From Seonamhaeicola sp. ML3 (GTDB lineage Bacteria > Bacteroidota > Bacteroidia > Flavobacteriales > Flavobacteriaceae): 64,000 nt of DNA. The stretch covers positions 2,108,001 through 2,172,000 of the forward strand of contig NZ_CP096884.1 in assembly GCF_023273855.1 (NCBI RefSeq), in the 5' to 3' direction. This document shows, one piece after another, positions 29,982 to 63,917 of the stretch. The first letter of the stretch is position 1, and every line of letters starts with the position of its first letter. A program made the translations under genes and the position numbers. The notes below the pieces were generated by a model. It was not told where the DNA came from and made no database searches. It saw only the letters and a list, made by a program, of their open reading frames with translations.

Positions 29982-30026
29982 AAGGATAGTGCAGGATAGG
30001 TTATTTTCAATATTTCCTTTTATTTG
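29982..30026 (+). promoter_or_regulatory. CAGGAYA tandem-repeat promoter, site 1 (GntR gene)
   Basis: AAGGATAGTGCAGGATA (29982-29998) with the -7-like box TTTATTTG at 30019-30026. The second repeat starts 27 bp before the box, as at all six sites. The -33 element is replaced by the repeat, so an activator is expected here. Confidence 0.65.
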
Positions 30027-30110
30027 GTAAATTCACGATACATTCTTTGAGAGGTGTTTTTTTAATGTCGTGAGTTTTACTCTTAAAGTTGTTTTTGCAT
30101 TATATTTAAC

Positions 30111-31112
30111 ATGGTCGAGACTCGAATAAAAATTAAGAATTTAAACAATAACGATTCACCTAAATACATTAAAATAGTTAACGCCATTAAGGAAGCTATA
30201 GATGTTAATGAATTAAGGATAGGGGACCGTATTCCCTCTATAAACGAATTTAGCAAAGACTACAAGGTTTCTAGAGACACCGTATACAAGGCTTATGTTT
30301 TATTGAAGGAGGAAGGCTATGTTAATTCTACACCAAATAAGGGGTATTATATTACGGAGAGCAGAAAAAAAGTACTGTTGTTAATAAGTACATTTAAGGC
30401 TTACAAAGAGGTTTTTTACCATTCCTTTATGAGTTGTTTGCCAAACAATGTTATTGTGGATTTACAGTTTCATCACTACAACATCAAGAACTTCAAGTCG
30501 ATGTTAAATGCGGATAATGGTAAGTACTTTAAGTATATTGTTATGGGATTTGATCATCCCGAAGTTAAATCATCATTATCTAAAATAGACAATAATAAAC
30601 TGCTTCTTATAGATTGGAAAGCTAACCTGGGAGTTTCAGGAAACTATGTGTTTCAGGACTTTGGTGAGTCATTTTATTCCTGTTTAAAAGACGCCAAAGA
30701 AGCCTTTAGTAAGTATACTAAACTTGTTTTTATTTACCCAGAATTCACATATCATCCTTATGAAAGTGTTAGGTATTTCGAGAAGTTTTGTGAATCAAAC
30801 AATTTTGAATATAGTATTTGCAAGAAATCCTCTAAGCTGAAGGTTGAGAAAGGAACAGCATATATTAGTGTGAACGATCGTATCCTTTACGAGTTGTTAA
30901 GTCAATCAAGCACTGCTGGTTTAGAAGTTGGAAAGGAAGTTGGTATATTGTCATATAACGACACCCCGTTAAAGAAATTTACATATAAGGGGATATCGGT
31001 AATTTCAATTGATTTTAAGGAATTTGGAGCAGAAGTTGCCGAGTTTATTTCTTCTACACAGCCACTACAAAGATACTTAACAACAAGACTTATTCTCAGA
31101 GATTCTTTGTAG
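30111..31112 (+). CDS. GntR-type regulator with LacI-like sugar-sensing domain
   Basis: Regulator of 333 aa. The N-terminal winged helix (about residues 12-82: YIKIVNAIKEAI, GDRIPSINEFSKDYKVSRDTVYKAYVLL) is GntR-type. Residues about 85-330 resemble a LacI/periplasmic-binding-protein sensor (VGILSYNDTPLKKFTYKGISVISID). This combination is common in Bacteroidota sugar regulators. It stands directly upstream of the uronate operon, so a uronate or pathway intermediate is the likely signal. Its own promoter carries the locus-wide tandem repeat, so it is part of the regulon, whether or not it binds that repeat. Confidence 0.85.
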   Translation: MVETRIKIKNLNNNDSPKYIKIVNAIKEAIDVNELRIGDRIPSINEFSKDYKVSRDTVYKAYVLLKEEGYVNSTPNKGYYITESRKKVLLLISTFKAYKEVFYHSFMSCLPNNVIVDLQFHHYNIKNFKSMLNADNGKYFKYIVMGFDHPEVKSSLSKIDNNKLLLIDWKANLGVSGNYVFQDFGESFYSCLKDAKEAFSKYTKLVFIYPEFTYHPYESVRYFEKFCESNNFEYSICKKSSKLKVEKGTAYISVNDRILYELLSQSSTAGLEVGKEVGILSYNDTPLKKFTYKGISVISIDFKEFGAEVAEFISSTQPLQRYLTTRLILRDSL

Positions 31113-31449
31113 TAACTGGGTTGCTGTAAGTTGTTTTTTTAAAAGTTGCCCCTACACATCTTATCAGGACAGAGCAGGACACTTTAGAGGAGTGTGTTAT
31201 TTAGCTTTGTTAGGACTTCAATCACAGTGTTGGTTTTTTAAAATAGTGAAGTTGAGAGATCAGTAAATCGACCTTTTGAAGTACAATTTAGGTGTGTTTA
31301 TAGTACAAAGCATCTGTTTTTCTTTGCACCGCCTAAGCTAAATGCATTGTTTTGTAAAGTCGAAGAGTCTTCTTTAGGAAGACTGATTTGAGAAAACTTC
31401 GTAAAAACAGGTTTTAAGTAAAAACTAAAAATTAAACAATTATAAGAGA
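31113..31449 (+). other. Gene-free region with promoter and long leader of the uronate operon
   Basis: Holds promoter site 2 (31165-31209). From the inferred start near 31215 the leader is about 235 nt, much longer than at the other sites. It contains a perfect 7-bp hairpin AGTCTTC-TTTAG-GAAGACT (31366-31384). No open reading frame of note. Confidence 0.6.
31165..31209 (+). promoter_or_regulatory. CAGGAYA tandem-repeat promoter, site 2 (uronate operon)
   Basis: CAGGACAGAGCAGGACA (31165-31181) and a perfect -7 box TAGCTTTG (31202-31209), 27 bp after the start of the second repeat. Confidence 0.75.
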
Positions 31450-32277
31450 ATGAGTAAAACTATTGTAATAACAGGAGCAGGAGGCGTGCTATGTAGTACT
31501 TTGGCAGAGGCTTTGGCCAAACAAGGTCATAATATAGCCTTATTGGATTTAAATAAAGAAGCCGCTACAGCAGCAGCTGAAAAAATTAACAAAGAAGGAG
31601 GTTCGGCAATTGGTGTCGAAGCTAATGTTTTAGAAAAAGACTCATTAATATCCGCAAAAAAAGAGGTTAATGATGCTTATGGTGAATGTGATATTTTAAT
31701 TAACGGTGCTGGAGGGAACCATCCTCTAGGGACAACAAGTAATCCTTTTTTAGAAATGGAGGATTTAAAAAATACCACAGAAGGTTTTAAAACGTTTTTT
31801 GATTTAGACCCAAAAGGTATCCAATTTGTATTCAACCTAAATTTTATTGGGACCTTATTACCAACTCAAATTTTTGCTGAGGATATGGTTGGAAGAGAAG
31901 GATGTAGTATCTTAAACATTTCTTCAATGAATGCATTTACGCCATTGACCAAGATTCCGGCTTATAGTGGAGCTAAGGCAGCTGTTTCCAATTTCACTCA
32001 ATGGTTAGCAGTTCATTTTTCTAAAGTTGGAATAAGGGTAAATGCGCTTGCGCCTGGATTCTTCTTAACAGAACAAAACAGAACCTTGTTAACTAATCCT
32101 GATGGAAGTTTAACACCAAGAGGAAACCAAATTATTGAACAAACACCTATGGGGAAATTTGGAGAGCCAGAGCATTTGGTGGGTACCACCTTATGGTTAT
32201 GTGGAGAAGGATCCTCATTTGTAACTGGTGTTGTAGTGCCTATCGATGGTGGGTTTAGTGCTTATAGCGGTGTTTAA
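31450..32277 (+). CDS. SDR-type D-mannonate oxidoreductase (fructuronate reductase)
   Basis: Short-chain dehydrogenase of 275 aa. The cofactor motif is TGAGGVLCSTLA (about residue 8), INGAGGN follows near residue 87, and the catalytic Ser and YxxxK are seen as NISSMNA and YSGAKAA. The insertion between these (NPFLEMEDLKNTTEGFKTFFDLDPKG) is characteristic of the SDR enzymes that stand in for UxuB. It would reduce D-fructuronate to D-mannonate with NAD(P)H. Being followed by the mannonate dehydratase gene supports this. First gene of the operon. Confidence 0.82.
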   Translation: MSKTIVITGAGGVLCSTLAEALAKQGHNIALLDLNKEAATAAAEKINKEGGSAIGVEANVLEKDSLISAKKEVNDAYGECDILINGAGGNHPLGTTSNPFLEMEDLKNTTEGFKTFFDLDPKGIQFVFNLNFIGTLLPTQIFAEDMVGREGCSILNISSMNAFTPLTKIPAYSGAKAAVSNFTQWLAVHFSKVGIRVNALAPGFFLTEQNRTLLTNPDGSLTPRGNQIIEQTPMGKFGEPEHLVGTTLWLCGEGSSFVTGVVVPIDGGFSAYSGV

Positions 32278-32382
32278 AATAAAATAGTTAACCGAATGGC
32301 CTGATGTATTGATTTCAATAAATACTCTGATCATGCTAATATTAACTGTAGAAAACAAAAAATTAAAATAATAATTATATAA

Positions 32383-33558
32383 ATGGAGCAAACATGGAGA
32401 TGGTACGGACCAAACGATCCAGTATCTTTATCAGATGTTAAACAAGCAGGAGCTACAGGAGTAGTTTCGGCATTACATCACATTCCTAATGGAGAAGTGT
32501 GGACCGTAGAAGAAATACAAAAGCGAAAAGATATTATAGAAAATGCAGGATTGACTTGGAGTGTTGTAGAAAGTATACCTGTTCATGAAAACATAAAAAC
32601 GCGCTCAGGGAATTTTAAAGCTTATATAGAAACCTATAAGCAAAGCATAGAAAACTTGGCCAAATGCGGAATACATATTGTGTGTTACAACTTTATGCCT
32701 GTACTGGATTGGACAAGGACCGATTTAGCGTTTAAGGTAGAAGATGGGTCTGAAGCACTACGTTTTGATGTTACTGCATTTGCAGCTTTCGAATTATATC
32801 TCCTTAAACGACCGGGTGCAGAGAGCGCATATACCAAAGCTCAAAAAGAGTCTGCAAAGACTTATCTTGAAGGACTTTCTGAAGATGAAAAGAGTAAACT
32901 CGTAAATAATATAATTGCTGGTTTACCAGGTGCAGAAGAAGGATACACCCTTGAGCAATTTCAAGGTATTTTAGATACTTATAAAGATATTGATGCCCAA
33001 ACTTTGCGGGATAATTTGGTTGAATTTTTAAAAGAGATCATACCAGTGGCCTCTCAAAATAATGTGCTAATGTGTATACATCCAGATGATCCACCGTATC
33101 CAATTTTAGGCTTGCCTAGGGTCGTTAGTACAGAGTCCGATTATGCATACCTGTTCGATAATGTTCCAGATAGAGCCAATGGTATAACATTTTGTACAGG
33201 TTCACTGGGAGTTAGGGAGGACAACGATCTAGTGAATATATTTAGACGATTTGCGGATCGCGCTCATTTTTTACACTTACGTAGTACAAAGCGAGATGAA
33301 GCTGGTAATTTTTATGAGGCTAATCATTTAGATGGCGATGTTGATATGTATGCTGTGGTAAAAGAAATTTTAGTTGAAGAAAAAAGACGTAAAGCAGAGG
33401 GTAGAGCAGATGCTGCAATACCAGTTCGACCAGATCACGGACATCAAATGCTAGATGATTTAAATAAAAAAACAAATCCAGGGTATTCGGGGATTGGTAG
33501 ATTACGAGGTCTTGCGGAATTACGCGGACTAGAATACGGTTTAAAACAAACAATATAA
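32383..33558 (+). CDS. uxuA: Mannonate dehydratase UxuA
   Basis: Metal-dependent TIM-barrel dehydratase of 391 aa converting D-mannonate to 2-keto-3-deoxygluconate. The N-terminus [16 protein letters not shown] is diagnostic, and the metal/substrate residues lie in [27 protein letters not shown] and the final RPDHGHQM. Length matches the family. It sits in the middle of the uronate operon. Confidence 0.95.
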
Positions 33559-33578
33559 AACAAACATAACTTTTTGCC

Positions 33579-34421
33579 ATGAGCACACATTACGAAACAA
33601 GATATGCGTCAAGTCCACAAGCAGTGAAGGCTTACGACACTAAGCAATTAAGAGACGAGTTTTTAATTGATAATCTAATGCAAGAAGATCAATTAATTTT
33701 GGTGTACACACACTATGATAGATATATGGCTGGTTCTGCAGTGCCTGTTGCTGGACCTGTTGTTCTTGAAACCATAGATCCATTAAAATCCAGTTATTTC
33801 CTAGAAAGAAGAGAGTTGGGAATAATAAATGTAGGGGGAGATGGAACTGTTGAGGTAGATGGAGATGTTTATGAACTAACCTTAAAGGATGCGCTTTATG
33901 TTGGTAGTGGAAATGAAAGTGTTGTGTTTAAAAGCAATGATGCCAGTAACCCAGCTAAATTTTACTTAAACTCTGCACCAGCTCACCAAAGCTTCCCAAC
34001 AAAGAAGGTAAGTAAGGCAGAAGCTAATAAAATTGAGTTAGGGTCTTTAGAAACAGCAAATCACCGCACGGTAAATCAGCAGATTATTGGTGGGATAGTT
34101 GAGACATGCCAATTGCAAATGGGAATGACAGAGCTTAAAACAGGAAGTGTTTGGAATACCATGCCTGCTCATGTTCACGATCGTAGAATGGAAATCTATT
34201 ATTACTTAGACCTTCCTGAAGATCAAGCAGTTTGTCACTTTATGGGGCAGCCACAAGAGACCAGACATATATGGATGCAAAACCACCAAGCTGTGATTTC
34301 ACCACCATGGTCTATTCACTCTGGTTCGGGAACTTCAAATTATACCTTTATCTGGGGAATGGCAGGTGAGAATTTAGATTACGGCGATATGGATGTTGCT
34401 AAAATTACAGAATTGAGATAG
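33579..34421 (+). CDS. kduI: 5-keto-4-deoxyuronate isomerase KduI
   Basis: Cupin isomerase of 280 aa converting 5-keto-4-deoxyuronate (4-deoxy-L-threo-5-hexosulose uronate) to 2,5-diketo-3-deoxygluconate. Zinc ligands lie in PAHVHDRRMEIYYYLDL (about residues 195-211), and a further His in the C-terminal SPPWSIHSGSG. The full family length is present. Together with the next gene it gives the branch for the unsaturated uronate released by lyases and GH88. Confidence 0.95.
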   Translation: MSTHYETRYASSPQAVKAYDTKQLRDEFLIDNLMQEDQLILVYTHYDRYMAGSAVPVAGPVVLETIDPLKSSYFLERRELGIINVGGDGTVEVDGDVYELTLKDALYVGSGNESVVFKSNDASNPAKFYLNSAPAHQSFPTKKVSKAEANKIELGSLETANHRTVNQQIIGGIVETCQLQMGMTELKTGSVWNTMPAHVHDRRMEIYYYLDLPEDQAVCHFMGQPQETRHIWMQNHQAVISPPWSIHSGSGTSNYTFIWGMAGENLDYGDMDVAKITELR

Positions 34422-34424
34422 GTT

Positions 34425-35219
34425 ATGAGTACTACGTTATTCGATATAAAAGGAAAAATTGCCTTGGTTACGGGTAGTACCCATGGTCTTGGTATGGCTA
34501 TGGCCAGAGGTTTAGGTTTAGCAGGAGCAACTATAGTTGTTAATGGGAACTCTTCTCAAGAAAAGATAGATAAAGCAGTAGCAGAATACAAAAGCGAAGG
34601 CATTAATGCTGTTGGTTATAAGTTTAATGTTACAGATGAAGCTGAAGTAATTTCGGCAATTGCAAAAATTCAAGAAGAAGTAGGGCATATTGATATATTA
34701 ATCAATAATGCTGGTATCATCAAACGAACACCTCTTATTGAAATGGAAGTGGCCGACTTCAAACAAGTTATAGATGTAGATTTGGTAAGCCCTTTTATTG
34801 TGTCAAAACACGTGGTACCGGCAATGATAGAACGAAAAGAAGGCAAGGTTATAAATATATGCTCTATGATGAGTGAATTGGGGCGCAATAGTGTGGGTGC
34901 ATATGCAGCAGCAAAAGGCGGCTTAAAAATGCTTACGCAAAATATGGCTACAGAGTGGGCAAAACACAATATCCAAGTAAATGGTATAGGACCAGGGTAT
35001 TTTGCAACATCTCAAACAGCGCCTATTCGTGTAGATGGACATCCTTTTAACGATTTTATTGTAAATAGAACACCTGCAGCCAAATGGGGAGACCCAGACG
35101 ATTTAGCGGGTGCTGCTATATTCTTATCCTCTAAAGCCAGTGACTTTGTAAACGGTCAAGTGGTTTATGTCGATGGTGGTATTTTAGCAACAATTGGAAA
35201 ACCTTCAAACGAAGATTAG
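34425..35219 (+). CDS. kduD: 2-deoxy-D-gluconate 3-dehydrogenase KduD
   Basis: SDR enzyme of 264 aa reducing 2,5-diketo-3-deoxygluconate to KDG. Cofactor motif TGSTHGLGMA (about residue 17), INNAGIIKR near residue 90, catalytic YAAAKGG, and GIGPGYFAT after the active site, all typical of KduD. It starts 3 bp after kduI and ends 2 bp before the DUF4861 gene. Confidence 0.92.
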   Translation: MSTTLFDIKGKIALVTGSTHGLGMAMARGLGLAGATIVVNGNSSQEKIDKAVAEYKSEGINAVGYKFNVTDEAEVISAIAKIQEEVGHIDILINNAGIIKRTPLIEMEVADFKQVIDVDLVSPFIVSKHVVPAMIERKEGKVINICSMMSELGRNSVGAYAAAKGGLKMLTQNMATEWAKHNIQVNGIGPGYFATSQTAPIRVDGHPFNDFIVNRTPAAKWGDPDDLAGAAIFLSSKASDFVNGQVVYVDGGILATIGKPSNED

Positions 35220-35221
35220 GT

Positions 35222-36400
35222 ATGAAGACCACTTCAATATTTATCTTGATATCAAGTGTATCTATATTCTTAGGTTGCGGAGGTAAGGCATCACAAATTA
35301 TTACCGTTAAAAACCCCTTGGATATTTCGAGAAGTCATGAGACAATTGAAATAAATGTAGCTGATATTCTCTTGGAGAAAGATAAGAATATTAACGATGT
35401 AGGTGTTATTGATGCCGAAACGGGCAAAGTTTTAATTACACAACTTGTCGATGAAAACCAAGATGGTAAATACGATATTTTATTATTTCAAGCAGAGGTT
35501 AATGCAAATTCTGAAAAGCAATACAAATTAACTGTAGTTAATTCTGATGAAAAGAAAACATCTATAGATTATTGTTTTTCTCGATTTGTTCCTGAGAGAA
35601 CCGATGATTACGCTTGGGAAAATAATAGAGTAGCCTTTAGAACGTTTGGGCCTGTTGCTCAAAAAATGGTAGAAGATGGCGTTAAGGGAGGTACATTATC
35701 TAGTGGAATAGATGCTTGGTTAAAACGAGTAGAATTTCCCATAATAGACCTATGGTACAAAAGAAATGACGCTAAGAAAGGTGCTTACCATAAAGACCAC
35801 GGTGAAGGTTTAGATAATTTTCACGTTGGTATTAGTAGAGGCGTTGGAGGTGTAGCGGTTAAGATAGATACTGCGTTCTATGTGTCTCGAAACTTTACTA
35901 AATGGAAAACCATTACTACCGGACCTATTAGAACAAGTTTTGTCCTAGAGTATGCCAATTGGAATGCTGGAGAAAATTCAATTTCAGAAGTAAAACATGT
36001 TTCCTTAGATTATGGAAGTAATTTATCTAGATATGAAGTAGAAATAACTGGTACCGATAATATTTATTCAGGGTTAACGCTTCATGAAAAAGATGGGAAA
36101 GATAGCCAGAATAAGGAGTTTGGTTATGTTTCTTACTGGGAGCCTCATGGTGATTCCGAATTGGGTACGGGTATAGTTGTGCCAAATGGTAATATGTTGT
36201 CTAGCGAATTATTCGATACACCCGTAAAGGACTGGAGTAATTTATATGCTCAAATTAAATTGGATGAAGGTAAGGCGCTGTATTATGCAGGATTTGGTTG
36301 GAAGAAATCCAATCAGTTTTCTTCGCAGGAGGAATGGGAGAACTATCTTAAAACATTTTCATTAAAAGTAAACAATCCACTTATTGTTTCAGTTAATTGA
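35222..36400 (+). CDS. DUF4861 lipoprotein
   Basis: Protein of 392 aa with a lipoprotein signal peptide (lipobox FLGC, Cys at about residue 19). The rest is beta-rich and matches my memory of DUF4861, found in many Bacteroidota loci for uronic-acid polysaccharides. Conserved-looking segments include ENNRVAFRTFGP and KDHGEGLDNFHVG, the latter with possible metal or catalytic His residues. The lipid anchor places it outside the cytoplasm although its neighbours are cytoplasmic enzymes. Its reaction is unknown to me. Confidence 0.72.
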   Translation: MKTTSIFILISSVSIFLGCGGKASQIITVKNPLDISRSHETIEINVADILLEKDKNINDVGVIDAETGKVLITQLVDENQDGKYDILLFQAEVNANSEKQYKLTVVNSDEKKTSIDYCFSRFVPERTDDYAWENNRVAFRTFGPVAQKMVEDGVKGGTLSSGIDAWLKRVEFPIIDLWYKRNDAKKGAYHKDHGEGLDNFHVGISRGVGGVAVKIDTAFYVSRNFTKWKTITTGPIRTSFVLEYANWNAGENSISEVKHVSLDYGSNLSRYEVEITGTDNIYSGLTLHEKDGKDSQNKEFGYVSYWEPHGDSELGTGIVVPNGNMLSSELFDTPVKDWSNLYAQIKLDEGKALYYAGFGWKKSNQFSSQEEWENYLKTFSLKVNNPLIVSVN

Positions 36401-36408
36401 TTTCGAAT

Positions 36409-37815
36409 ATGAAAATTAGTAATTTTATTACAGATAATTTTGTGTTACAGACTGAAGTTGCCCAAACTTTATATCATGATTACGCAAAAGATTTACCAAT
36501 AATAGATTATCACAACCACTTATCACCTAAAGAGATTGCCGAAAACCAACCCATGAAAAATATCACTGAGGCTTGGTTAAAAGGGGATCATTATAAGTGG
36601 AGGGCTATGAGAGCTAACGGTATCGATGAGCTTTATATCACTGGTTCGGCCATATCACACAAAGAGAAATTTTTAAAATGGGCTGAAACGGTTCCGTACA
36701 CGTTAAGGAACCCTTTATTTCACTGGACACAGTTGGAGCTTAAAAGGTATTTTGACATTGATGTTATTTTACAGCCGGATACAGCTGAGGAAATATATAA
36801 AAAAGCCAATGCAATACTCTTCGATAAAACCCCTGCTCAGTTGTTGGAGCACATGAAGGTAGAGGTTGTTTGTACCACAGATGATCCTACCGATAACTTA
36901 GCTTATCATAAAGAAATTGCACAGCAAGACTTTTACACAAAGGTATTTCCAACCTTCAGGCCAGATGAACTGTTCTTTATTGGAGAAGATAAATTCTCTA
37001 AATATCTAAAAAAATTAGGTTCTAGTGTAGGTTATGAAGTTAATAACTATGAGCACTTAATAAAGGCCATAGACGAACGCATAGAATATTTTCATGATAC
37101 AGGCTGTCGTTTGTCAGATTACGGTATAAGTGGCGCATTTACATATGTAGAACATACCCAAGACGAAGTAGCGGGTATCTTTAACAATTACCTTAAAGGT
37201 AACAGCCTTTCTGAAGATGATATAAAAAAATACCGTTCTAGCTTGCTTCTGCATTTAGGTAAAAAATACCATGAAAAGGGTTGGGCCCAGCAATATCATC
37301 TAGGGGTTATTAGAAACAATAACAGCAGACTCAATGAAATGGTAGGAGCAGATGCAGGTTGTGATTCTATTGCAGATTATCCGATTATTGAAGGTCTTTC
37401 CAAATTCTTTAATGAACTAAGTAGAACTAACCAATTGGCCAAAACTATTGCTTACAATTTAAATCCTGCACAAAATGAAACCTTTGCAACAATGATGGGG
37501 AACTTTCAAAGTTCAGACTGTCCTGGGAAGATGCAGTGGGGTTCTGCTTGGTGGTTCTTAGACCAAAAAGATGGTATGGAAAAGCAAATAAATTGTCTGT
37601 CCAATATGGGATTACTTAGCCGATTTGTAGGTATGTTGACCGACAGTAGAAGCTTTTTGTCATTCCCAAGACACGAGTACTTCAGGCGTGTTTTATGTAA
37701 TATCATTGGAGAGGATGTTAAGCAGGGTTTAATTCCTAACGACATTGAATTTTTAGGTAAGATGGTACAGGATATTTGTTATTACAACGCCAAGAACTAT
37801 TTCAATTTTGAATAG
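36409..37815 (+). CDS. uxaC: Uronate isomerase UxaC
   Basis: Amidohydrolase-fold isomerase of 468 aa converting D-glucuronate to D-fructuronate (and galacturonate to tagaturonate). The metal motif IDYHNHLSP is near residue 33, with later GADAGCDS and LTDSRSFLSFPRHEYFRR, both diagnostic. An in-frame TTG at 36397 overlaps the upstream gene; ATG 36409 gives the usual N-terminus. No altronate enzymes (uxaA/uxaB) are nearby, so glucuronate is the likelier substrate here. Confidence 0.95.
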   Translation: MKISNFITDNFVLQTEVAQTLYHDYAKDLPIIDYHNHLSPKEIAENQPMKNITEAWLKGDHYKWRAMRANGIDELYITGSAISHKEKFLKWAETVPYTLRNPLFHWTQLELKRYFDIDVILQPDTAEEIYKKANAILFDKTPAQLLEHMKVEVVCTTDDPTDNLAYHKEIAQQDFYTKVFPTFRPDELFFIGEDKFSKYLKKLGSSVGYEVNNYEHLIKAIDERIEYFHDTGCRLSDYGISGAFTYVEHTQDEVAGIFNNYLKGNSLSEDDIKKYRSSLLLHLGKKYHEKGWAQQYHLGVIRNNNSRLNEMVGADAGCDSIADYPIIEGLSKFFNELSRTNQLAKTIAYNLNPAQNETFATMMGNFQSSDCPGKMQWGSAWWFLDQKDGMEKQINCLSNMGLLSRFVGMLTDSRSFLSFPRHEYFRRVLCNIIGEDVKQGLIPNDIEFLGKMVQDICYYNAKNYFNFE

Positions 37816-37859
37816 CCTCGAATCAAAAAAAATTAATAAACACTTAAACTAAAATAAGT

Positions 37860-39182
37860 ATGACTGAAACAAAAAAAATCGGGAATTATCGCTACAGGAT
37901 ATTAGCCTTGCTGATGTTTGCAACCACCATCAACTATTTTGATAGGAGTTTGATGGGGATTATGTCTCCGGATCTCATCGAGTGGTTTGGTTGGACCAAA
38001 AAAGACTACGCTTACATAGTTATGATATTCCAGGCCTTTTATGCCATTGGATTAATTTCTATGGGAGGTATAATTGACAAATTGGGAACCAAAAAAGGAT
38101 ATATTCTTGCCATTGGTACTTGGAGTGTTTTCGGTATGCTTCATGCCGCAGTTGGAAGAGGATTCAGTTTTATTGGTTTTGCAATAGCTAGAGCTGGTCT
38201 AGGTTTTGGTGAAGCAGGAAACTTTCCTGCTGCGATTAAAACTACAGCAGAATGGTTTCCTAAAAAGGATAGGGCATTTGCTACTGGGCTGTTTAATGCT
38301 GCCACAAGTCTTGGTGCCATTGCTGCGCCTTTCGTAATAGGGGGCATTGTGTTTTGGACTGGAGGAGACAAAGGTATGGGAGAACTTAAAAACTGGCAAA
38401 TTCCTTTTCTTATCACTGGTGGATTAAGTGCTTTATGGGTTTTCCTTTGGTTGAGAACTTACAAAAAACCGGAAAAACATCCCAAACTATCCAAAGAGGA
38501 GTTAGAGTATATCAATAGCGATTCTACAGAAGAATCTGACGCTAAGCTTTCTTGGGCTAAAGTATTTCCAAAAAGACAAACTTGGGCCTTTTCTCTTGCT
38601 AAGATAACAGATGCGGTTTGGTGGTTTTACCTATTCTGGGGAGCTATATTCCTTTCAGAGAATTTCGGTGTAAAAATTAAAGAAATGGGATTACCATTTT
38701 TGGTTATTTACCTTATAGCGGATGCGGGAAGTATTTTTGGAGGTTGGTTGTCGGGTAGCTTTATGAGAAAGGGTTGGCCTGTTAATAAAGCAAGGAAACT
38801 AACCTTATTAATCTGTGCTATCATCATATTACCAGTTTGTTTTGTTGCGTTTACAGAGAGTAAATGGGTAGCGATAGTACTAATTTCACTTGGAGCAGCA
38901 GGACATCAAGCATGGTCGGCTAATATTTTCACCTTGGTTTCAGATGTATTTCCTAAAAAAGCAACAGCATCGGTTGTGGGTATTGGAGGAATGGTTGGAG
39001 CTTTAGCAGGTTTAGTCAGTAACCTAATTTTAGGTTCTGTTCTTGATGAAGCCAGTAAAACAGGTTTTTTCTGGGCTTTCTTGGTGGCAGGGTCACTATA
39101 CATCATAATACTAGGTTTGGTTCATTTATTGATGCCTAAAATGACACCTATGGATGAAAACCTAAACCTGATTAAAGAGTAA
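37860..39182 (+). CDS. MFS hexuronate transporter, ExuT-like
   Basis: Major-facilitator protein of 440 aa with about twelve membrane helices, of the anion:cation symporter group. The first helix carries TINYFDRSLMG, a hallmark of ExuT/DgoT-type carriers, and GFGEAGNFPAAIK in helix 4 is also typical. Being last in the uronate operon, it most likely brings free hexuronate or unsaturated uronate into the cytoplasm. A terminator follows directly. Confidence 0.88.
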   Translation: MTETKKIGNYRYRILALLMFATTINYFDRSLMGIMSPDLIEWFGWTKKDYAYIVMIFQAFYAIGLISMGGIIDKLGTKKGYILAIGTWSVFGMLHAAVGRGFSFIGFAIARAGLGFGEAGNFPAAIKTTAEWFPKKDRAFATGLFNAATSLGAIAAPFVIGGIVFWTGGDKGMGELKNWQIPFLITGGLSALWVFLWLRTYKKPEKHPKLSKEELEYINSDSTEESDAKLSWAKVFPKRQTWAFSLAKITDAVWWFYLFWGAIFLSENFGVKIKEMGLPFLVIYLIADAGSIFGGWLSGSFMRKGWPVNKARKLTLLICAIIILPVCFVAFTESKWVAIVLISLGAAGHQAWSANIFTLVSDVFPKKATASVVGIGGMVGALAGLVSNLILGSVLDEASKTGFFWAFLVAGSLYIIILGLVHLLMPKMTPMDENLNLIKE

Positions 39183-39206
39183 ATCTTAATTTTAAAATAA
39201 TAATTA

Positions 39207-39239
39207 AAAGCTGCAGTTGTTTAGAACTGCGGCTTTTTC
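39207..39239 (+). terminator. Terminator of the uronate operon
   Basis: AAAAGCTGCAGTT (39207-39218 region) pairs with AACTGCGGCTTTTT (39225-39238) around a GTTTAG loop, ending in T's. Confidence 0.8.
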
Positions 39240-39322
39240 TATTTAAACTTGCTTTTACTTCAGTTTTTAATGTTGCTAGTTTTTCATTTCTCAATGCATT
39301 AAATTTATCAACTGTATTCAGT

Positions 39323-39330
39323 TACTTTTG
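39323..39330 (+). promoter_or_regulatory. -7 box candidate for the hybrid regulator gene
   Basis: TACTTTTG fits TAnnTTTG fully, 69 bp before the chosen start. No CAGGAYA repeat is seen 27 bp upstream, so this gene is outside that promoter class. Confidence 0.4.
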
Positions 39331-39398
39331 AGCATTAAAATATTCATCTTGATATTTAATTATTGCTTTTTTTAATCTTAAAGTCCTTATATTTCAGA

Positions 39399-42300
39399 AT
39401 GCGGAAGATTTTTATATTCCTTTTAATTTTTTGCTCAGGTTTTGTTGGAAGTGGACAAAATGGCGTTTCCTATCAATTTAATCATTTATCTACAGCTGAT
39501 GGGCTTTCGCAAAGCTCAGCAATTGCCATTCATCAAGACAGATTAGGACAAATGTGGATTGGAACTCGTGACGGTCTTAATAAATACGACGGTACTAAGT
39601 TTTCTATTTACAGAAATCAAGAAAATAATCCATACTCCATAAGCAATAACGATATTTTATCTATTCAAGAAGATGATAGCGGAAACCTGTGGGTTGGTAC
39701 ATATAATGGTTTAAATAGATACAACCCTAAAACAGATCAGTTTGAAAGCTATTTTCACGATGAATTTAACAGTTCCCTATCAAACAACACGGTATGGTCC
39801 ATAAGAAAACTTTCTAATGGTGCTATTTGGGTTGGTACATGGAGGGGGTTGTCTGTATATGATGAAAAAACGAATAGTTTTCATAATTATTTAGATAACC
39901 AAGGCAGGCCTGCAAAGATGAAAGTAATGGCCATTTTAGAAACTAAATCTGGTCGAATTTTTATAGGTACAGGCGCCGGTGTTTTCGAGGCAAATTATGA
40001 AGAGGGTAAGCTACTTGGGTTAGAGATTCTTCCCGGAAGTGAAAGTTATCATGTTCAAGATTTAGCTGAAGATGAAAGTGCTAATTTATTGTTAGGTACC
40101 AAAGATGACGGGCTTATAAGGTACAGTCTCAAGAGTAAAGCCTACAGTCCTTTTTTTAAAAAAGAGACAACGTTAAAGAGTATAAAAAGTATTAGAAAGC
40201 TTCTTTTTGATAATCAAGGCGTACTTTGGATTGGGACTTATGAAGGGCTCATAACAGTTAATAAGAATGGGGCAATCGAGTTGTTACAAGCCGATTTAGA
40301 TAACAAAAAGGGATTAAGTAAAAATTCGATTAAATCCCTATTTAAGGATAACAAAGGTTCTGTATGGATAGGTACTTATTACGGAGGTGTTAATATTTGG
40401 GATACTTCAAATAGTAACTTTGAAAACATCATACAAAATCAAAAGGGCAAAGGGCTGAATTACACTGTGGTAAGTTCTATAGAGTCTTACGGTGATTATG
40501 TGTTTTTTGGAACAGAAGGTGGTGGTTTAAATATTTGGAATAAAACAAATAATTCCTATAAATATCTCACAGAGACTAATTCTCGTTTAATAGATAACAA
40601 TATAAAAGCATTAGAAATATTAGATTCTACCAAACTGTGGATAGGTACCTTTAAAACAGGCTTGCAAATTTATGATGCTGATAAAAGAAGATTTGAGTCT
40701 ATAACACTGCCAAAAGAACTAGCTGATTTATTAAAAAATGCTGGAGTATATACCATAAAAAAAGATACAGAAAACAATCTATGGATAGGAACTTTTGGTA
40801 AGGGTTTGATAAAATATAATCATGGTTTACAGGAATTTAGTCATTTTCAGTCCTCAAATGAAGGAGTAAATGACCTGTCGAACAACCTAATAAGAACAAT
40901 TCTAATCGACAAAAAAAGTAACGTTTGGGTAGGAACAGAAAATGGATTGAATAAAATTACTGAATCAAGTCAAATTACAAATTTCTTTTACGATAAGACC
41001 TTGCAATATGGTGATGATATCCTGTCAATTCACCAGGATTTAAACGAGACTATTTGGGTTGGAACAAAGTCGAAAGGCTTATTTAAATACAATGGAGAAG
41101 GATTCGATGCTGTTTCATTCAATTTAGAAGACACTAAAATATCTGCAATTCGAAGTATACAAGAAGATAACCAGAAGCAGCTTTGGATTGGGACCAATCA
41201 AGGTATTCTTAAATACAACCCTAAGATAGGAGATGTTAAGATTTATAATGAGACAGACGGCGTTATTAGTAACGAGTTTAACGACAATGCTATTTTAAAG
41301 TTGAATGATACCGAGTTTTATTTTGGTGGTCCCAATGGAGTAACACGCCTTAATACGGAAAGAATTACTATAAACGAACATGCGCCACAAGTTATTCTAA
41401 CCGATTTTCTCATAAGGGAAAGTGATTCTAAAAAAAACAGCTCTATTGATGTGCTAAAATACACATTACCTTTTACAGAGAGTGTAGAGCTCGATTATGA
41501 TCAAGGAAACTTTAGTATATCGTTTTCTATTCCAAGTTTTGTAAACTCTAGTAACAATAGTTACAGGTATAGATTAAGAGGTTTAGAGAAGGAATGGAAT
41601 TCTACAAGTAATAATTCGGCATCATACACTATTCAAAATCCTGGCGATTACGTTTTTGAAGTTATGGGTGCTAATAATGATAAAGTATGGAACGGTACCA
41701 CTACAAGTTTAAGGATATGTGTAGCACCAGCACCTTGGAGAACATGGTGGGCATTCACTATTTATGGCCTATTAATACTGGTATCACTATTTTTTCTATT
41801 TCGAATTCTTAAATCGAGAACACGATTACTGCATGAATTGGAATTAGAGCACTTGGAGACAGAAAGAACTAAAGAAGTTAACCAAACCAAATTGGAGTTT
41901 TTCACCAATATTTCTCATGAATTTCGAACACCATTGGCCTTGATTTTGGGACCTTTAGGACAAATAATAGAAGATTACCGAGGTAGTAGCAAAATGTACA
42001 AAAAGCTCTTGGTCATTGAAAATAGTGCAAATCACCTCTTACAGCTCATAAATAGGTTAATGGATTTTAGAAAGTTTGAAAAGAAGCTTTTCACTCTTGA
42101 GGCCGCAGAAGGTAATATTGTCAAGTTTTTAAGGGAAATTTATCTTTCTTTTACCGAGCATGCTAAAACCGGTGGCTATAATTTCAATTTCATCACCGAT
42201 GAAGATGAAATTTTAGTGTATTACGACAGGAATAAATTAGAACGTGTATTTTATAATCTTATTTCTAATGCATTTAGATATACTCCAAAAGGTGGGGATA

Positions 42301-43463
42301 TTAATATTCGGATTCTTCGTAAAGAACATCAAATTATAATAAACGTAGAGGATAGCGGGGTTGGTATTGCCGAAGAATTTCAAGATAAAATCTTCGAAAG
42401 ATTTTTTGAGGTAGCTGTTAATAACAAGCCAGACCAAAGTTACAATAAGGGTACGGGTATTGGTCTGTCTATTGCTAAGAATATTGTGGAGTTACATAAA
42501 GGGGAAATAGCATTAAATAAAAATGAAAATAATATTGGCTCTGTTTTTTCGGTTATGCTTAAATTAGGGAAGAGCCATTTAACTGAAGACGAAATTTTAC
42601 AGGACTATAAGTTTAGCGATGATCTTTCTCAATACGTTAAGCAACTAGAGGAATCTCCCGAAGTCGTTCTAAACGATGATTTAGACTCGGTTGATGAGAC
42701 CGATAAAAGTACAATTCTGTTAGTAGAGGACAACAAGCCCCTTAGAAAGTTCATTAAAAGTACACTGTTGCCTTACTATAAAGTTTTGGAGGCAGAAAAT
42801 GGAAAAGTTGCGTTCAAGGTAGCTAAAAAAGAATCTCCCGATCTTATAGTTAGTGATGTTATCATGCCCGAAATGACCGGTACAGAGCTTTGTGCCGCTG
42901 TAAAAGGCGATTTAAAAACAAGTCATATTCCAATAATACTGTTAACTTCCAGAACGTCTTTAATCTATAAGTTAAATGGTCTAGAAAGTGGAGCTGATGA
43001 CTACATTAATAAACCGTTCGATGTAAAAGAATTTAAGTTAAGAATTAAAAATATACTTCATAATAGGGAAAAGTTAAAGCAGAAGTTTGCTAACAGCGAA
43101 GGTGTATTGCCAGATGAGGTTTTGGTATCATCATTTGACGAGAAACTGTATCAAAAGGCGCTCAACATTGTAAAAGAAAATGTGGGCAATGAAGACTTTG
43201 ATATAGCTATGTTTTGTTCAGAGCTGGGGGTAAGTAGAACAATGCTATTCACAAAAATAAAAGCTTGGTCTAATTTTACACCAAACGAGTTCATTTTGCA
43301 TTTTAGGATGAAACGTGCCGCACAGTATTTAGAACAAGGAAAACTTAATATTTCACAAATTTGTTATAAAGTAGGGTATAAAAACCCTAAATACTTCAGT
43401 AAAACTTTTCAAAAGAAGTTTGGAGAGACACCATCTCAGTACGCTTCTAAATTTTCAGATTAG
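39399..43463 (+). CDS. Hybrid two-component system regulator (HTCS)
   Basis: One-protein sensor-regulator of 1354 aa that detects oligosaccharides in the periplasm and activates PUL genes. Order: signal peptide; two-component propeller repeats (many WIGT/WVGT units, to about residue 680); Y_Y_Y domain; membrane helix near 785; histidine kinase with His840 in NISHEFRTP and ATPase motifs NLISNAFRYTPKGG and GTGIGLSIAKN; receiver with Asp1153 in IVSDVIMPEMTG; C-terminal AraC-type DNA-binding domain. The frame is open from TTG 39363, but ATG 39399 starts the signal peptide. All phospho-relay residues are intact. Confidence 0.95.
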   Translation: MRKIFIFLLIFCSGFVGSGQNGVSYQFNHLSTADGLSQSSAIAIHQDRLGQMWIGTRDGLNKYDGTKFSIYRNQENNPYSISNNDILSIQEDDSGNLWVGTYNGLNRYNPKTDQFESYFHDEFNSSLSNNTVWSIRKLSNGAIWVGTWRGLSVYDEKTNSFHNYLDNQGRPAKMKVMAILETKSGRIFIGTGAGVFEANYEEGKLLGLEILPGSESYHVQDLAEDESANLLLGTKDDGLIRYSLKSKAYSPFFKKETTLKSIKSIRKLLFDNQGVLWIGTYEGLITVNKNGAIELLQADLDNKKGLSKNSIKSLFKDNKGSVWIGTYYGGVNIWDTSNSNFENIIQNQKGKGLNYTVVSSIESYGDYVFFGTEGGGLNIWNKTNNSYKYLTETNSRLIDNNIKALEILDSTKLWIGTFKTGLQIYDADKRRFESITLPKELADLLKNAGVYTIKKDTENNLWIGTFGKGLIKYNHGLQEFSHFQSSNEGVNDLSNNLIRTILIDKKSNVWVGTENGLNKITESSQITNFFYDKTLQYGDDILSIHQDLNETIWVGTKSKGLFKYNGEGFDAVSFNLEDTKISAIRSIQEDNQKQLWIGTNQGILKYNPKIGDVKIYNETDGVISNEFNDNAILKLNDTEFYFGGPNGVTRLNTERITINEHAPQVILTDFLIRESDSKKNSSIDVLKYTLPFTESVELDYDQGNFSISFSIPSFVNSSNNSYRYRLRGLEKEWNSTSNNSASYTIQNPGDYVFEVMGANNDKVWNGTTTSLRICVAPAPWRTWWAFTIYGLLILVSLFFLFRILKSRTRLLHELELEHLETERTKEVNQTKLEFFTNISHEFRTPLALILGPLGQIIEDYRGSSKMYKKLLVIENSANHLLQLINRLMDFRKFEKKLFTLEAAEGNIVKFLREIYLSFTEHAKTGGYNFNFITDEDEILVYYDRNKLERVFYNLISNAFRYTPKGGDINIRILRKEHQIIINVEDSGVGIAEEFQDKIFERFFEVAVNNKPDQSYNKGTGIGLSIAKNIVELHKGEIALNKNENNIGSVFSVMLKLGKSHLTEDEILQDYKFSDDLSQYVKQLEESPEVVLNDDLDSVDETDKSTILLVEDNKPLRKFIKSTLLPYYKVLEAENGKVAFKVAKKESPDLIVSDVIMPEMTGTELCAAVKGDLKTSHIPIILLTSRTSLIYKLNGLESGADDYINKPFDVKEFKLRIKNILHNREKLKQKFANSEGVLPDEVLVSSFDEKLYQKALNIVKENVGNEDFDIAMFCSELGVSRTMLFTKIKAWSNFTPNEFILHFRMKRAAQYLEQGKLNISQICYKVGYKNPKYFSKTFQKKFGETPSQYASKFSD

Positions 43464-43477
43464 CATTTTTTTGTAAT

Positions 43478-43493: not shown

Positions 43494-43561
43494 TAGTTGA
43501 TTGTATTATTTTATACCCTATTCTGTATTTTGGTTTTTATGATTTCATTTAGTTTTAAGCG

Positions 43562-43654: not shown

Positions 43655-43684
43655 ACTTAAATATTTGCTAAAACTAATTTAACA

Positions 43685-48244: not shown

Positions 48245-49435
48245 ATGATTAGAGTTAGTTTTTTCATTATGGGGTTTACATTGCTTTTTATAGCGTGTAA
48301 GCCCGGTGATGAAAAGAAGAAAGATAGTGTTTCAAATGAAGATGAGATAAACAATCTAATTAAAAAGAGGTATTCTAAATTTTTGGATTATGAACTTGAT
48401 TCCACAGCATTTGCTAGAAGTTACAATCCAAAGACCAATACCATTAAAAAAGTACCCTCAAGTAATTGGACCAGTGGTTTTTTTGCGGGTAATTTTTGGC
48501 AGATTTATAGGCTTACTGGTGATGACTCTTTCAAGGAAAGCGCCAAAGCATGGACTGCCTTTGTTGAAAGAGAGAAGTACAATGACAGAACACATGATAT
48601 GGGATTCAAGATATTCTGTAGTTATGGTAATGGTTTAAAAGTTGAAGCTAACAAAGCGTACGAAGATATCATAGTTAAAAGCGCTAAAACTTTAGCAACT
48701 CGATTCGATGAGAATATAGGTAGTATTCGATCTTGGGATTGGAATGAAGATGTTTGGCAATTTCCTGTCATTATCGACAATATGATGAACTTAGAGTTGT
48801 TGTTTGAAGCTACTAAAATATCAGGAGACAGTACCTTTCATAAAATAGCAGAACGACATGCCGTTACAACATTAAAAAATCATTTTAGAGAGGATGGAAG
48901 CACGTGGCACGTATTGGATTATGATACTATCTCAGGAAATGTTAGAGCACGAGTAACCCATCAGGGCATTCATGATGATTCTGCTTGGGCTAGAGGACAG
49001 GCTTGGGCCATAAACGGCTTTACAACAACGTACAGATATACAAAGGATAAGAGATTTTTAAATCGTGCAGTAGCTACGGCAAATTACTTTATAAATCATA
49101 AGAATTTACCAGAAGATGGTATTCCATATTGGGATTTTGATCATCCAGATATTCCAAACACCTCAAGAGATGTTTCGGCTGCTGCCATAGTTGCTTCAGG
49201 ATTAACTGAGCTCTATCAATATACTAAAGATGATACTTTTATAAATTACAGTAAAAAAGTAGCTGAAAGTCTAAAATCAACAGGCTATATATTGCCTGAA
49301 GATTTGGATGTACCTTTTATTTTGGATCACAGCTTTGGAGATTGGTCACATAAGGTAGAGATGGATGAACCTATAGTTTATGGAGACTATTATTTTCTAG
49401 AGCTCCTTATTAGGTTGAAAGCGTTGGGTTTTTAA
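48245..49435 (+). CDS. GH88 unsaturated glucuronyl hydrolase (lipoprotein)
   Basis: Removes 4,5-unsaturated uronate from the non-reducing end of lyase-made oligosaccharides; 396 aa. Lipoprotein signal (FIAC, Cys18). The alpha6/alpha6-barrel motifs are seen: SNWTSGFFAG, THDMGF with Asp118, VIIDNMMNLELL with Asp178 (the two Asp of GH88 catalysis), HQGIHDDSAWARGQAWAING, and RDVSAAAIVASGL. It ends the first susC operon, and promoter site 3 follows immediately. Substrate class (glycosaminoglycan-, ulvan- or gellan-like) cannot be read from the sequence. Confidence 0.9.
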   Translation: MIRVSFFIMGFTLLFIACKPGDEKKKDSVSNEDEINNLIKKRYSKFLDYELDSTAFARSYNPKTNTIKKVPSSNWTSGFFAGNFWQIYRLTGDDSFKESAKAWTAFVEREKYNDRTHDMGFKIFCSYGNGLKVEANKAYEDIIVKSAKTLATRFDENIGSIRSWDWNEDVWQFPVIIDNMMNLELLFEATKISGDSTFHKIAERHAVTTLKNHFREDGSTWHVLDYDTISGNVRARVTHQGIHDDSAWARGQAWAINGFTTTYRYTKDKRFLNRAVATANYFINHKNLPEDGIPYWDFDHPDIPNTSRDVSAAAIVASGLTELYQYTKDDTFINYSKKVAESLKSTGYILPEDLDVPFILDHSFGDWSHKVEMDEPIVYGDYYFLELLIRLKALGF

Positions 49436-49480
49436 CAGGACGGAGCAGGACATTTAGCCTTGCGCACTTTAATACATTTA
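49436..49480 (+). promoter_or_regulatory. CAGGAYA tandem-repeat promoter, site 3 (GH2 gene)
   Basis: CAGGACGGAGCAGGACA (49436-49452), beginning at the base after the GH88 stop, and -7 box TACATTTA (49473-49480), again 27 bp after the second repeat start. The leader holds an imperfect hairpin (49499-49532). Confidence 0.7.
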
Positions 49481-51975: not shown

Positions 51976-52611
51976 TTACAAAAGAACTCATTACTCTTAC
52001 CAAAAACCACCTAGAGTAGAAAATCATAAATAATAAATCTACAAGGTTTTACAGAGTGAACTGAATAATAGTTTGCCCAGGAGATTAAAATATAATTAGA
52101 TTAGTTTTTTAGTTGTGATAAAAAGGGTTAGTTCAAAACTCAAAGTTTATCTCCGAGGTTACACTTGTATTCTGAGAAATAAGCTCTGTTTGCCTTTCTA
52201 TTTTGCAATATCTATTATTGCCAATTAAATATTTTGTCCTAACATTATTTTCTGTCCATATTCAACTGAGTAAACAATTTCTTCATAATTGTCCTCTTCC
52301 ATAATATACTTATCATAAGTCTAATTGGTTGAAAAATCAATTTTTCAACGACATTAACTAGCTTAAAAAAGATTTTATACTTCTAAAAAAACTGATTTAA
52401 TTATCATTGAGTTTATAATAGTAATGGATTTCAAGGTATTATAAAAAAAGAAATAGCTTTTTTGTTAAAACAGGACAGTCGACAGGATAGAGCAGGATAC
52501 GAACTTTAACAGTTATTAGTAAAATTGTTACTTAATTATTATGTCATTAAGTTAAACTTACGTTAAATTGGGCTTACTTAATGCATTCTAAACTAAGTAA
52601 AACTATAATTT
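51976..52611 (+). other. Gene-free region before the second Sus block
   Basis: In these 636 bp I see no credible gene. It holds a perfect inverted repeat with 10-bp arms (GTTGAAAAAT, spacer CA, its complement; 52328-52349), and promoter site 4 with three repeat units (52471-52527). The rest is AT-rich and unassigned; an antisense RNA cannot be excluded. Confidence 0.6.
52471..52527 (+). promoter_or_regulatory. CAGGAYA tandem-repeat promoter, site 4 (second Sus block)
   Basis: Three units: CAGGACA at 52471, then CAGGATAGAGCAGGATA at 52483-52499. The -7 box TAAAATTG (52520-52527) is 27 bp after the start of the last unit. The extra unit is offset 12 bp instead of 10. Confidence 0.7.
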
Positions 52612-55776: not shown

Positions 55777-55786
55777 AAAAAGAGAT

Positions 55787-57661: not shown

Positions 57662-57704
57662 TAAATTTGTACAAACTAAATACTAAAATACTAAAGAAAA
57701 TAAA

Positions 57705-60776: not shown

Positions 60777-60800
60777 TAAAATAAAAATTAGATATATAAA

Positions 60801-62522: not shown

Positions 62523-62557
62523 GGCTAAATTTTAAAAGAATTAAAACATATTTAAAC

Positions 62558-63613: not shown

Positions 63614-63651
63614 TAGTTTCAGTTTCTCTAACAAAATCCGTTAGATATATA

Positions 63652-63683
63652 AAAAAGCGAGACATTTAAGTCTCGCTTTTTTT
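63652..63683 (+). terminator. Terminator of the second Sus block
   Basis: AAAAAGCGAGAC, loop ATTTAA, GTCTCGCTTTTTTT: a perfect stem with a long T-run, about 40 bp after the DUF1735 gene. Confidence 0.92.
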
Positions 63684-63710
63684 ATTGAATTTTAGGTTTT
63701 GTTTAATATT

Positions 63711-63755
63711 CAGGATACAACAGGATAGATAATATTTTTTATCATAATATATTAG
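63711..63755 (+). promoter_or_regulatory. CAGGAYA tandem-repeat promoter, site 5 (candidate small RNA)
   Basis: CAGGATACAACAGGATA (63711-63727) and -7 box TATATTAG (63748-63755), spacing 27 bp as at the other sites. Nothing but the terminated segment to 63851 lies downstream before site 6. Confidence 0.6.
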
Positions 63756-63759
63756 AACA

Positions 63760-63851
63760 ATATTCAAGTTTTTAGTTTAGAGTAAGTTATAATTATTTGA
63801 GTTAGTCACTACTCTCCATTGTATGTGTTGTTTACGATGGAGAGTTTTTTT
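63760..63851 (+). ncRNA. Candidate small RNA, about 90 nt
   Basis: Bounded by promoter site 5 (start inferred near 63760) and an intrinsic terminator at 63811-63851. No reading frame of useful length. The 5' half is AU-rich and unstructured by eye; the 3' half is the terminator hairpin. It could act as a trans-acting RNA of the locus, or be merely a terminated leader. Prediction only. Confidence 0.4.
63811..63851 (+). terminator. Intrinsic terminator of the candidate small RNA
   Basis: ACTCTCCATTGTA pairs with TACGATGGGAGAGT (one bulged G, one G-U pair), loop about 9 nt, followed by six T's. Confidence 0.8.
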
Positions 63852-63872
63852 ATGTGATATGCATAAAATATT

Positions 63873-63917
63873 CAGGACAGTGCAGGATAAAGTAAGGCAA
63901 TAAATAAGTTAGTTTTA
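63873..63917 (+). promoter_or_regulatory. CAGGAYA tandem-repeat promoter, site 6 (gene at right edge)
   Basis: CAGGACAGTGCAGGATA (63873-63889) and -7 box TAGTTTTA (63910-63917), 27 bp after the second repeat start and 37 bp before the next ATG. Confidence 0.7.

Follow-up and report, generated by a model that had tools for sequence, protein, structure and literature searches.

The DNA analysed here, a stretch of 64,000 nucleotides from Seonamhaeicola sp. ML3 (positions 2108001-2172000 of a single-contig genome of 3467789 bp), is referred to as the window; coordinates of five digits are positions in it and those of seven digits positions in the genome, which carries the label G000 among the genomes compared. 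The window holds a GntR-type regulator gene (GntR_A), a uronate operon, a hybrid two-component system (HTCS) gene, a first susC, a GH2 gene, a second susC/susD block, a candidate small RNA and the beginning of a sulfatase/alpha-L-rhamnosidase gene. Six of these units are preceded by the element that is the subject of this analysis, a tandem repeat of CAGGAYA with a 10-bp period, followed at a fixed distance by a -7 box of the form TAnnTTTG. From its sequence, spacing and distribution it is likely that a clade of regulators joining a GntR winged helix to a LacI-type sensor binds CAGGAYA-N3-CAGGAYA, its members acting as class-II activators of the promoters of a large carbohydrate island. The six sites lie exactly at 29982, 31165, 49436, 52483, 63711 and 63873, where the initial annotation had placed them. 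Each is followed by a TAnnTTTG-like box whose start is exactly 27 bp from that of the second repeat, with five or six of its six fixed positions matched (mismatches below are counted against CAGGAYAGNGCAGGAYA):

29982..30026, plus strand: site 1, AAGGATAGTGCAGGATA, with the -7 box at 30019-30026 (TTTATTTG); one mismatch; promoter of GntR_A
31165..31209, plus strand: site 2, CAGGACAGAGCAGGACA, with the -7 box at 31202 (TAGCTTTG, six of six positions); no mismatch; promoter of the uronate operon
49436..49480, plus strand: site 3, CAGGACGGAGCAGGACA, with the -7 box at 49473 (TACATTTA); one mismatch; promoter of the GH2 gene with its ATG at 49561 (GH2 by reading of the sequence, without a domain scan)
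52471..52527, plus strand: site 4, CAGGATAGAGCAGGATA at 52483, with the -7 box at 52520; no mismatch; promoter of the second susC/susD block
63711..63755, plus strand: site 5, CAGGATACAACAGGATA, with the -7 box at 63748 (TATATTAG); two mismatches; promoter of the candidate small RNA
63873..63917, plus strand: site 6, CAGGACAGTGCAGGATA, with the -7 box at 63910 (TAGTTTTA); no mismatch; promoter of the sulfatase/alpha-L-rhamnosidase gene with its ATG at 63955

At up to three mismatches the window contains eight matches to CAGGAYAGNGCAGGAYA against 0.76 expected, a number reached in none of 100 shuffles; the two additional matches, at 23212 and 39534, lie inside long open reading frames (ORFs). 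No site was seen in the regions upstream of the HTCS gene and the first susC, which had indeed been described as lacking it. The GH88-type gene upstream ends at 49435 and site 3 abuts its stop codon, so that this promoter occupies a very tight gap, and a third CAGGACA stands at 52471, 12 bp upstream of site 4.

The composite pattern (CAGGAYA tandem repeat, N20 and -7 box, with the reversed pattern as control) has 23 matches in the whole genome at up to three mismatches and none in the control, and all 23 fall between 2137982 and 2412812. A genome-wide scan had been proposed by the initial annotation, and it places every composite match inside one carbohydrate island with none scattered elsewhere; the promoter class is thus real, while its supposed locus-wide extent has to be enlarged to the island and, as described below, to the family. 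The repeat alone is poorly selective across the genome (66 matches at up to two mismatches against 38 in the reversed control). Within 360 kb around the island the repeat alone gives 31 matches, 28 of them intergenic, and 26 of these 28 have a box matching at least four of six positions at offset 27, the distance from the start of the second repeat to the start of the box; 21 of the 28 match at least five. At no other offset from 12 to 41 are the corresponding counts higher than seven and two. The two hits without a box at 27 are 2366031, which is a shifted register of a triple repeat and duplicates 2366041, and 2207540. A same-strand ORF starts 26-248 bp after the box start at each of the 26 boxed island sites. 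The same spacing recurs in other genomes, where 65 of 106 sites from 80 named loci have a box of at least five positions at offset 27, the next best offset being 10.

The repeat itself is regular, as a second CAGGAYA is far more frequent at a distance of exactly 10 than at any other distance, and columns 1-7 and 11-17 are repeated head to tail both in 27 sites of the own genome and in 146 sites of other genomes. The latter are those retained from 150 listed sites (up to 10 places per genome, from part of the genomes) after exclusion of the single rows of G219, G306, G158 and G190, and most of them read CAG[GTC]AYA[GC]N[AG]CAGGAYA. Some promoters carry three or four units in 10-bp steps, once with a 12-bp step (G000 2366031-2366057, window 52471 and G184:C6:208935, the last with four tandem units at one site). 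The second repeat ends 20 bp upstream of the -7 box, where the TTTG of the Bacteroidota -33 element is expected, and TTTG at gaps 16-25 is found in none of the 26 island promoters. The repeat therefore overlaps the -33/-35 region at a fixed distance from the -7/-10 box (26/28 at 27 bp), which is the arrangement of a class-II activator and bears out the earlier suggestion that the repeat takes the place of the -33 element as expected for an activator touching the polymerase.

About 26 sites are found in this one island of 275 kb, which runs from the GntR gene of the window to beyond the L-rhamnose operon and contains many sulfatases, rhamnosidases and SusC/SusD proteins (labelled mostly by eye). 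Eighteen first genes behind island sites were scanned with Pfam, four of them lacking any Pfam family. Among the others are two PL28 ulvan lyases behind the sites at 2211138 and 2312700, the 1172-aa sulfatase/GH78 fusion behind site 6, which extends past the window, two further sulfatases, another rhamnosidase of GH78 type and one of GH106 type, one GH2 and one GH5 protein, and several proteins that carry a secretion tail. The operon at 2404300 begins with RhaEW, a bifunctional rhamnulose-phosphate aldolase/dehydrogenase, followed by L-rhamnose isomerase-like and rhamnulokinase-like proteins, both below curated cut-offs. One of the island sites is at 2404228. Site 2 stands before the following operon, in which the best model match of the MFS transporter is likewise below its cut-off:

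31450..39182, plus strand: uronate operon, with D-mannonate oxidoreductase-type SDR, UxuA, KduI-type isomerase, SDR (by eye), DUF4861, glucuronate isomerase and MFS transporter

Since genes for rhamnose, uronate and sulfate occur together with PL28, the gene content points to ulvan as the substrate that the island serves. At 2309814 on the minus strand a site with a 4/6 box precedes an ECF sigma/anti-sigma pair and a SusC/SusD operon (by eye), and through it the regulon may feed a sigma cascade. The segment 2276697-2285353, with a kinase, an NtrC-type regulator and efflux/ABC genes (by eye), lies within the island and has no site.

Outside this genome, the composite site at up to two mismatches occurs in 89 of 397 genomes of the same family, with up to 18 sites per genome, and the reversed control matches in ten of the 397, once each (counted by eye). 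A class-wide draw of 395 genomes gave 22 with a match; two or more sites outside the family were found in G427 (6), G431 (5), G749 (3) and G504, G767 and G754 (2 each).

The island encodes eight regulators, three of GntR type, three HTCS and two AraC. The GntR-type genes are GntR_A at 2138111, GntR_B at 2360655 and GntR_C at 2402920, and in all three both the N-terminal GntR winged helix (PF00392) and the C-terminal LacI-type effector domain (PF13377) score above the Pfam cut-off. An AlphaFold model of GntR_C, built on a 27-sequence alignment with a mean pLDDT of 88, has the LacI-family proteins LacI, RbsR, CcpA and PurR as its top Foldseek matches. The member within the window is:

30111..31112, plus strand: GntR_A, 333 aa, GntR winged helix and Peripla_BP_3 (LacI-type) by Pfam, a paralog of the rhamnose-type GntR_C

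The sites track these genes across genomes. A close homolog of GntR_C (E<1e-100) is present in 79 of the 397 family genomes, and 75 of these 79 have sites as compared with 14 of the 318 others. Thirteen of those 14 have one site each, and all but one of the 68 genomes with at least two sites have a close homolog, the exception (G020) having a more distant one. In a genus-matched table compiled by eye (at least 21 genera with both states), regulator-bearing members have more sites in 21 of 21 genera; in the own genus, G000 and G374 have 14 and 18 sites with the regulator, and G213, without a close homolog, has none. The link is looser outside the close set: in other families 13 of 17 genomes with sites have a homolog at E<=1e-15, as do 6 of 21 siteless genomes drawn from some of these families, and among the single-site family genomes without a close homolog only one of ten has a homolog at that threshold.

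Adjacency of genes and sites tells the same story at finer scale. In 20 of 30 GntR_C loci a site stands at the 5' end of rhaEW, and 75 of the 80 named loci have a site (three in the reversed control). The site is 65-91 bp upstream of rhaEW in 50 of these loci and more than 1 kb upstream in another group, which consists mostly of Flavobacterium; in two loci (L104, L106) it precedes a gene similar to the island ORF at 2275577, by eye a rhamnose transporter. GntR_C-type loci occur, for instance, in Algibacter, Polaribacter, Hyunsoonleella and Nonlabens ulvanivorans. Orthologs of GntR_A, 65-74% identical, were found in nine other genomes; a homolog of the first uronate-operon gene adjoins the ortholog in five of these nine loci, a site lies directly before it in L136, L137, L141 and L144, and with the own locus included a site is within 1.5 kb in 9 of 10. 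Site 1 thus probably serves autoregulation of GntR_A, its position being compatible with positive feedback and autorepression alike. The initial annotation doubted that a GntR protein would suit short direct repeats; this doubt does not hold up against the co-distribution over 397 genomes, and direct repeats are known as sites of some GntR regulators (PMC4494728). In ten genomes (listed by eye, and including G000 2360697-2365936) a distance of 116-279 bp separates a GntR gene of the clade from an HTCS gene, so that an intracellular and a periplasmic sensor are paired.

A related arrangement is seen in a sister clade of GntR_A, 51-58% identical to it and represented by 20 loci (L145-L164). We call this clade the xylose type, as the gene after the regulator best matches xylulokinase, below the cut-off (scanned in L145 only); the same protein start recurs in L151 and L155. 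The CAGGAYA site is absent from 19 of the 20 loci scanned, and no 10-bp repeat of whatever sequence combined with a box at 27 turned up when these loci were scanned for one. Instead, CAGAAC-N4-CAGAAC, again with a 10-bp period, is found immediately upstream of the regulator gene, with no more than one mismatch, in 17 of 20 loci. It reads CAGAACAGAACAGAACGG or a close form and sits just downstream of a TAnnTTTG box, the start of which is 13 bp upstream of the repeat in 15 of 20 loci; a protein bound there would therefore cover the start site, which is a repressor position. That paralogs adjoin related direct repeats is what would be expected if this family of proteins is the binder.

If the clade acts as we propose, head-to-tail DNA-binding domains one helical turn apart would cover about -50 to -33, and the housekeeping promoters served would retain only their TAnnTTTG -7 box. 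An ulvan-derived sugar would then let the GntR protein recruit polymerase as a class-II activator. Such an activator is favoured over an alternative sigma factor because the distance is strictly fixed, the -33 element is missing and the -7 box is of the housekeeping type. The proposed inducers, suggested by gene context only, would be L-rhamnose for GntR_C and a uronate-pathway sugar for GntR_A, and the three paralogs may divide the labour. The ancestral role of the clade would be control of L-rhamnose catabolism through the rhaEW operon, the same site having presumably spread in ulvan degraders to about 26 places of one island.

The closest competitor to this reading keeps the same proteins and turns them into repressors that block polymerase at -33 and are released by sugar, and several observations weigh in its favour or otherwise against activation by the clade. 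AraR of Bacillus subtilis, the best studied relative and the closest in architecture among studied proteins, is a repressor that acts on palindromes and is released by sugar (PMC4218819). The xylose-type repeats occupy a repressor position, and a repressor seated at -33 would look much like an activator, the distinction here being drawn from position. Absence of a -33 TTTG is weak evidence for activation because it is also rare in xylose-type promoters (TTTG at gaps 14-25 in 2/15, against 1/26 island promoters). The Fisher p of 5e-61 for co-occurrence of GntR_C and the site ignores kinship and is hence too small. A close homolog without a site at up to two mismatches occurs in four family genomes (G173, G215, G256 and G348, of which G256 has a 3-mismatch site before rhaEW in L101), and in other families six genomes have a homolog and no site (G659, G669, G691, G594, G711 and G480). 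Sub-specificity of the paralogs is also only suggestive. Uronate-operon sites beside GntR_A mostly have an AG spacer and CAGGAC as second repeat (as in CAGGACAGAGCAGGACA), most rhaEW sites have the form C[AG]GTAYAGTACAGGATA, and G265, with no GntR_A at E<=1e-80, has a uronate site reading CATGACAGGACAGGATA; over the 146 sites, own sites excluded, the AG spacer goes with GntR_A in 6/48 against 3/98 (p 0.06), and with all 27 own sites the former becomes 12/75 (p 0.005). What speaks against repression is that an invariant 27-bp spacing over 26 island sites and the named loci would be unusual, as repressors tolerate varied operator positions, and that promoters with TTTG at gaps 16-25 in 0/26 are expected to be weak without help, even though it is rare in the xylose type too. 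We therefore regard repression as unlikely and, given that a GntR protein binds at all, activation as a good deal more probable.

Other proteins fit the sites less well. The HTCS that the initial annotation put forward as a candidate is the following, and the idea may be extended to any of the three AraC-type HTCS of the island:

39399..43463, plus strand: HTCS_A, with Reg_prop, Y_Y_Y, HisKA, HATPase, receiver and AraC HTH domains; not the likely binder

AraC-type proteins do bind direct repeats, three HTCS genes lie in the island and HTCS genes neighbour clade GntR genes in the ten genomes mentioned above. Yet HTCS_A homologs at E<=1e-150 are found in 63 of 73 site-bearing genomes and not in the other 10, and are often about 32% identical (more distant HTCSs being uncounted), whereas 67 of the 68 genomes that carry at least two sites have a GntR at least 50% identical; in addition, when the eight island regulators were compared with 30 loci (the best site with its surroundings, about 3 kb in all), eight held a GntR_A/B/C homolog and two an HTCS stretch. 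Published HTCS motifs consist of long units with a period of about 21 bp (PMC3878776), and published AraC-type motifs have a similar period (PMC3878776, PMC3870299), against exactly 10 here, and an HTCS as binder is accordingly very improbable. PhoB sites are direct repeats of 10-11 bp, so that a stand-alone regulator of OmpR/PhoB, AraC or DeoR type might also be considered, the DeoR-family RhaR sites being direct repeats of the same length (PMC3870299). Such a binder would leave the GntR co-occurrence unaccounted for, and is the least probable of all those weighed here. Particular candidates were tried and set aside: of 73 site-bearing genomes, 30 have a homolog of AraC_A at E<=1e-30 and in 43 none was found; the two Trans_reg_C matches of the genome are both outside the island; and a crude regular-expression scan of 150 island ORFs gave no DeoR-type N-terminus. 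Among the three HTCS and two AraC regulators of the island, the genome-by-genome searches covered HTCS_A and AraC_A.

Site 5 differs from the others in what follows it. A stem-loop and T-run come after the box at 63748, and the transcript would end at about 63852, ahead of site 6, so that the site at 63711 probably makes an RNA of about 90 nt:

63762..63852, plus strand: candidate RNA of about 90 nt (ends inferred), with the segment 63787-63808 TTATAATTATTTGAGTTAGTCA followed by a terminator-like hairpin with T-run

The fold z of this candidate is -3.7. The element is clearly present in 5 of 29 genomes searched (the own genome, G374, G132, G378 and G070), other matches being short pieces, and a CAGGAYA site lies upstream in four of the five, G378 being the exception; the candidate is conserved in the loci L246-L249. 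The small RNA first suggested by the initial annotation has thus gained support from the terminator that follows it and from conservation in 4 of 28 other genomes. No Rfam match was found within 63740-63852, in a copy of Rfam whose content was not checked for FopS, and at 63634-63739 there are eight matches to other families, all below threshold. A 19-mer, TAATTATTTGAGTTAGTCA, or close forms of it recur in many family genomes. In eight of them it lies in antisense immediately ahead of the ATG with which a SusC-like gene (MKTKFSGILT..., by eye) starts, and in sense, exactly or in a close form, it follows the stop codon of other genes and precedes their terminator-like hairpin (by eye) in several genomes (L251-L255, L257, L262, L266, L267, L271, L274, L276, L281 and L283), as if there were more RNAs sharing the segment. 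In the own genome (L265, region of 1932394) the candidate can form 22 uninterrupted pairs, one of them G-U, with the start of the SusC-like gene, ending 1 nt before the ATG, compared with a mean of 9.5 and a longest run of 17 in 200 shuffled targets; in G374 and G070 the runs are 18 and 20, against 15 and 16 as the longest in shuffles. The duplex energy of -36.7 is less striking than the pairing, being reached by 1 of 500 shuffled targets (0 of 100 for a shorter target). The segment 63787-63808 and the SusC-like mRNA start are a possible pair of small RNA and target.

These elements can be joined into a wider proposal, which is tentative and in our view somewhat less probable than its converse. 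GntR regulators with a LacI-type sensor would, throughout Bacteroidota, be fixed-position class-II activators on 10-bp-period repeats and repressors where the repeat follows the -7 box, as in the xylose type. The ulvan regulon of about 26 places would include a small RNA pairing with a SusC-like start outside the island, so that monosaccharide sensing might switch on ulvan use and silence a competing transporter. The more restricted proposal already offers a regulator, a site and a promoter geometry, all open to testing, for the use of ulvan and L-rhamnose in marine Flavobacteriaceae, and the motif can be used as a marker to predict rhamnose and ulvan genes in unannotated genomes. If it is true, a single type of intracellular monosaccharide sensor would tie together a whole mega-polysaccharide utilization locus, in contrast to the scheme of a separate HTCS for each locus, and the small RNA would bring control at the transcript level into that regulon.

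The initial annotation knew of no described regulator with this site, and none appears among the matches listed in our searches of mostly open-access literature, nor do those matches include a paper on this motif or one that describes regulation of rhamnose or ulvan use by a GntR protein in Bacteroidota. Several known systems are comparable in part. Among GntR regulators with direct-repeat sites, GabR also activates, and the sensor domains of the NanR, FarR, NagQ and MocR types differ from the LacI type. Direct repeats as here are described for NanR, FarR and NagQ and for the MocR types GabR, TauR and PdxR, the regulators analysed including one from Bacteroidetes, and their repeats differ from CAGGAYA (TGGTATAW, TGTATTAWTT, TGGTATT, ATACCA; PMC4494728). 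AraR shares with the island proteins the union of a GntR-type DNA-binding domain with a LacI/GalR-type sensor and a sugar-catabolism regulon with polysaccharide genes, and its DNA-binding domain is among the nearest PDB relatives. It represses from palindromic boxes, At(T/A)tGTaCGTAcaa(A/T)T (PMC4218819), whereas the presumed operator here is a head-to-tail repeat with a 10-bp period at a fixed -33 position. RhaR regulators likewise control rhamnose genes including rhaEW and belong, as far as described, to the AraC, LacI and DeoR families, those of DeoR type having direct repeats of 10-11 bp; these families differ from the GntR-family protein here, and a text search of that study finds neither GntR nor Flavobacter (PMC3870299). 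Bacteroides HTCS and SusR also control polysaccharide utilization loci through direct-repeat sites, with HTCS units of 12-16 bp and spacers of 5-9 bp and SusR sites 67 or 77 bp apart, and their regulons comprise one or a few loci (PMC3878776) in comparison with a period of 10 and about 26 sites here. FopS of Bacteroides thetaiotaomicron is, like the candidate at 63711, a short RNA with a single-stranded 5' segment followed by a terminator, and it represses SusC-like transporters by pairing (PMC11697453); the candidate has a seed complementary to a susC-like start region (SusC-like by eye), and unlike FopS it would be driven by a GntR-regulon promoter. Sugar regulators of the GntR family are well known, and what would be new is the unusual operator and promoter geometry together with an unusually large regulon for a single substrate.

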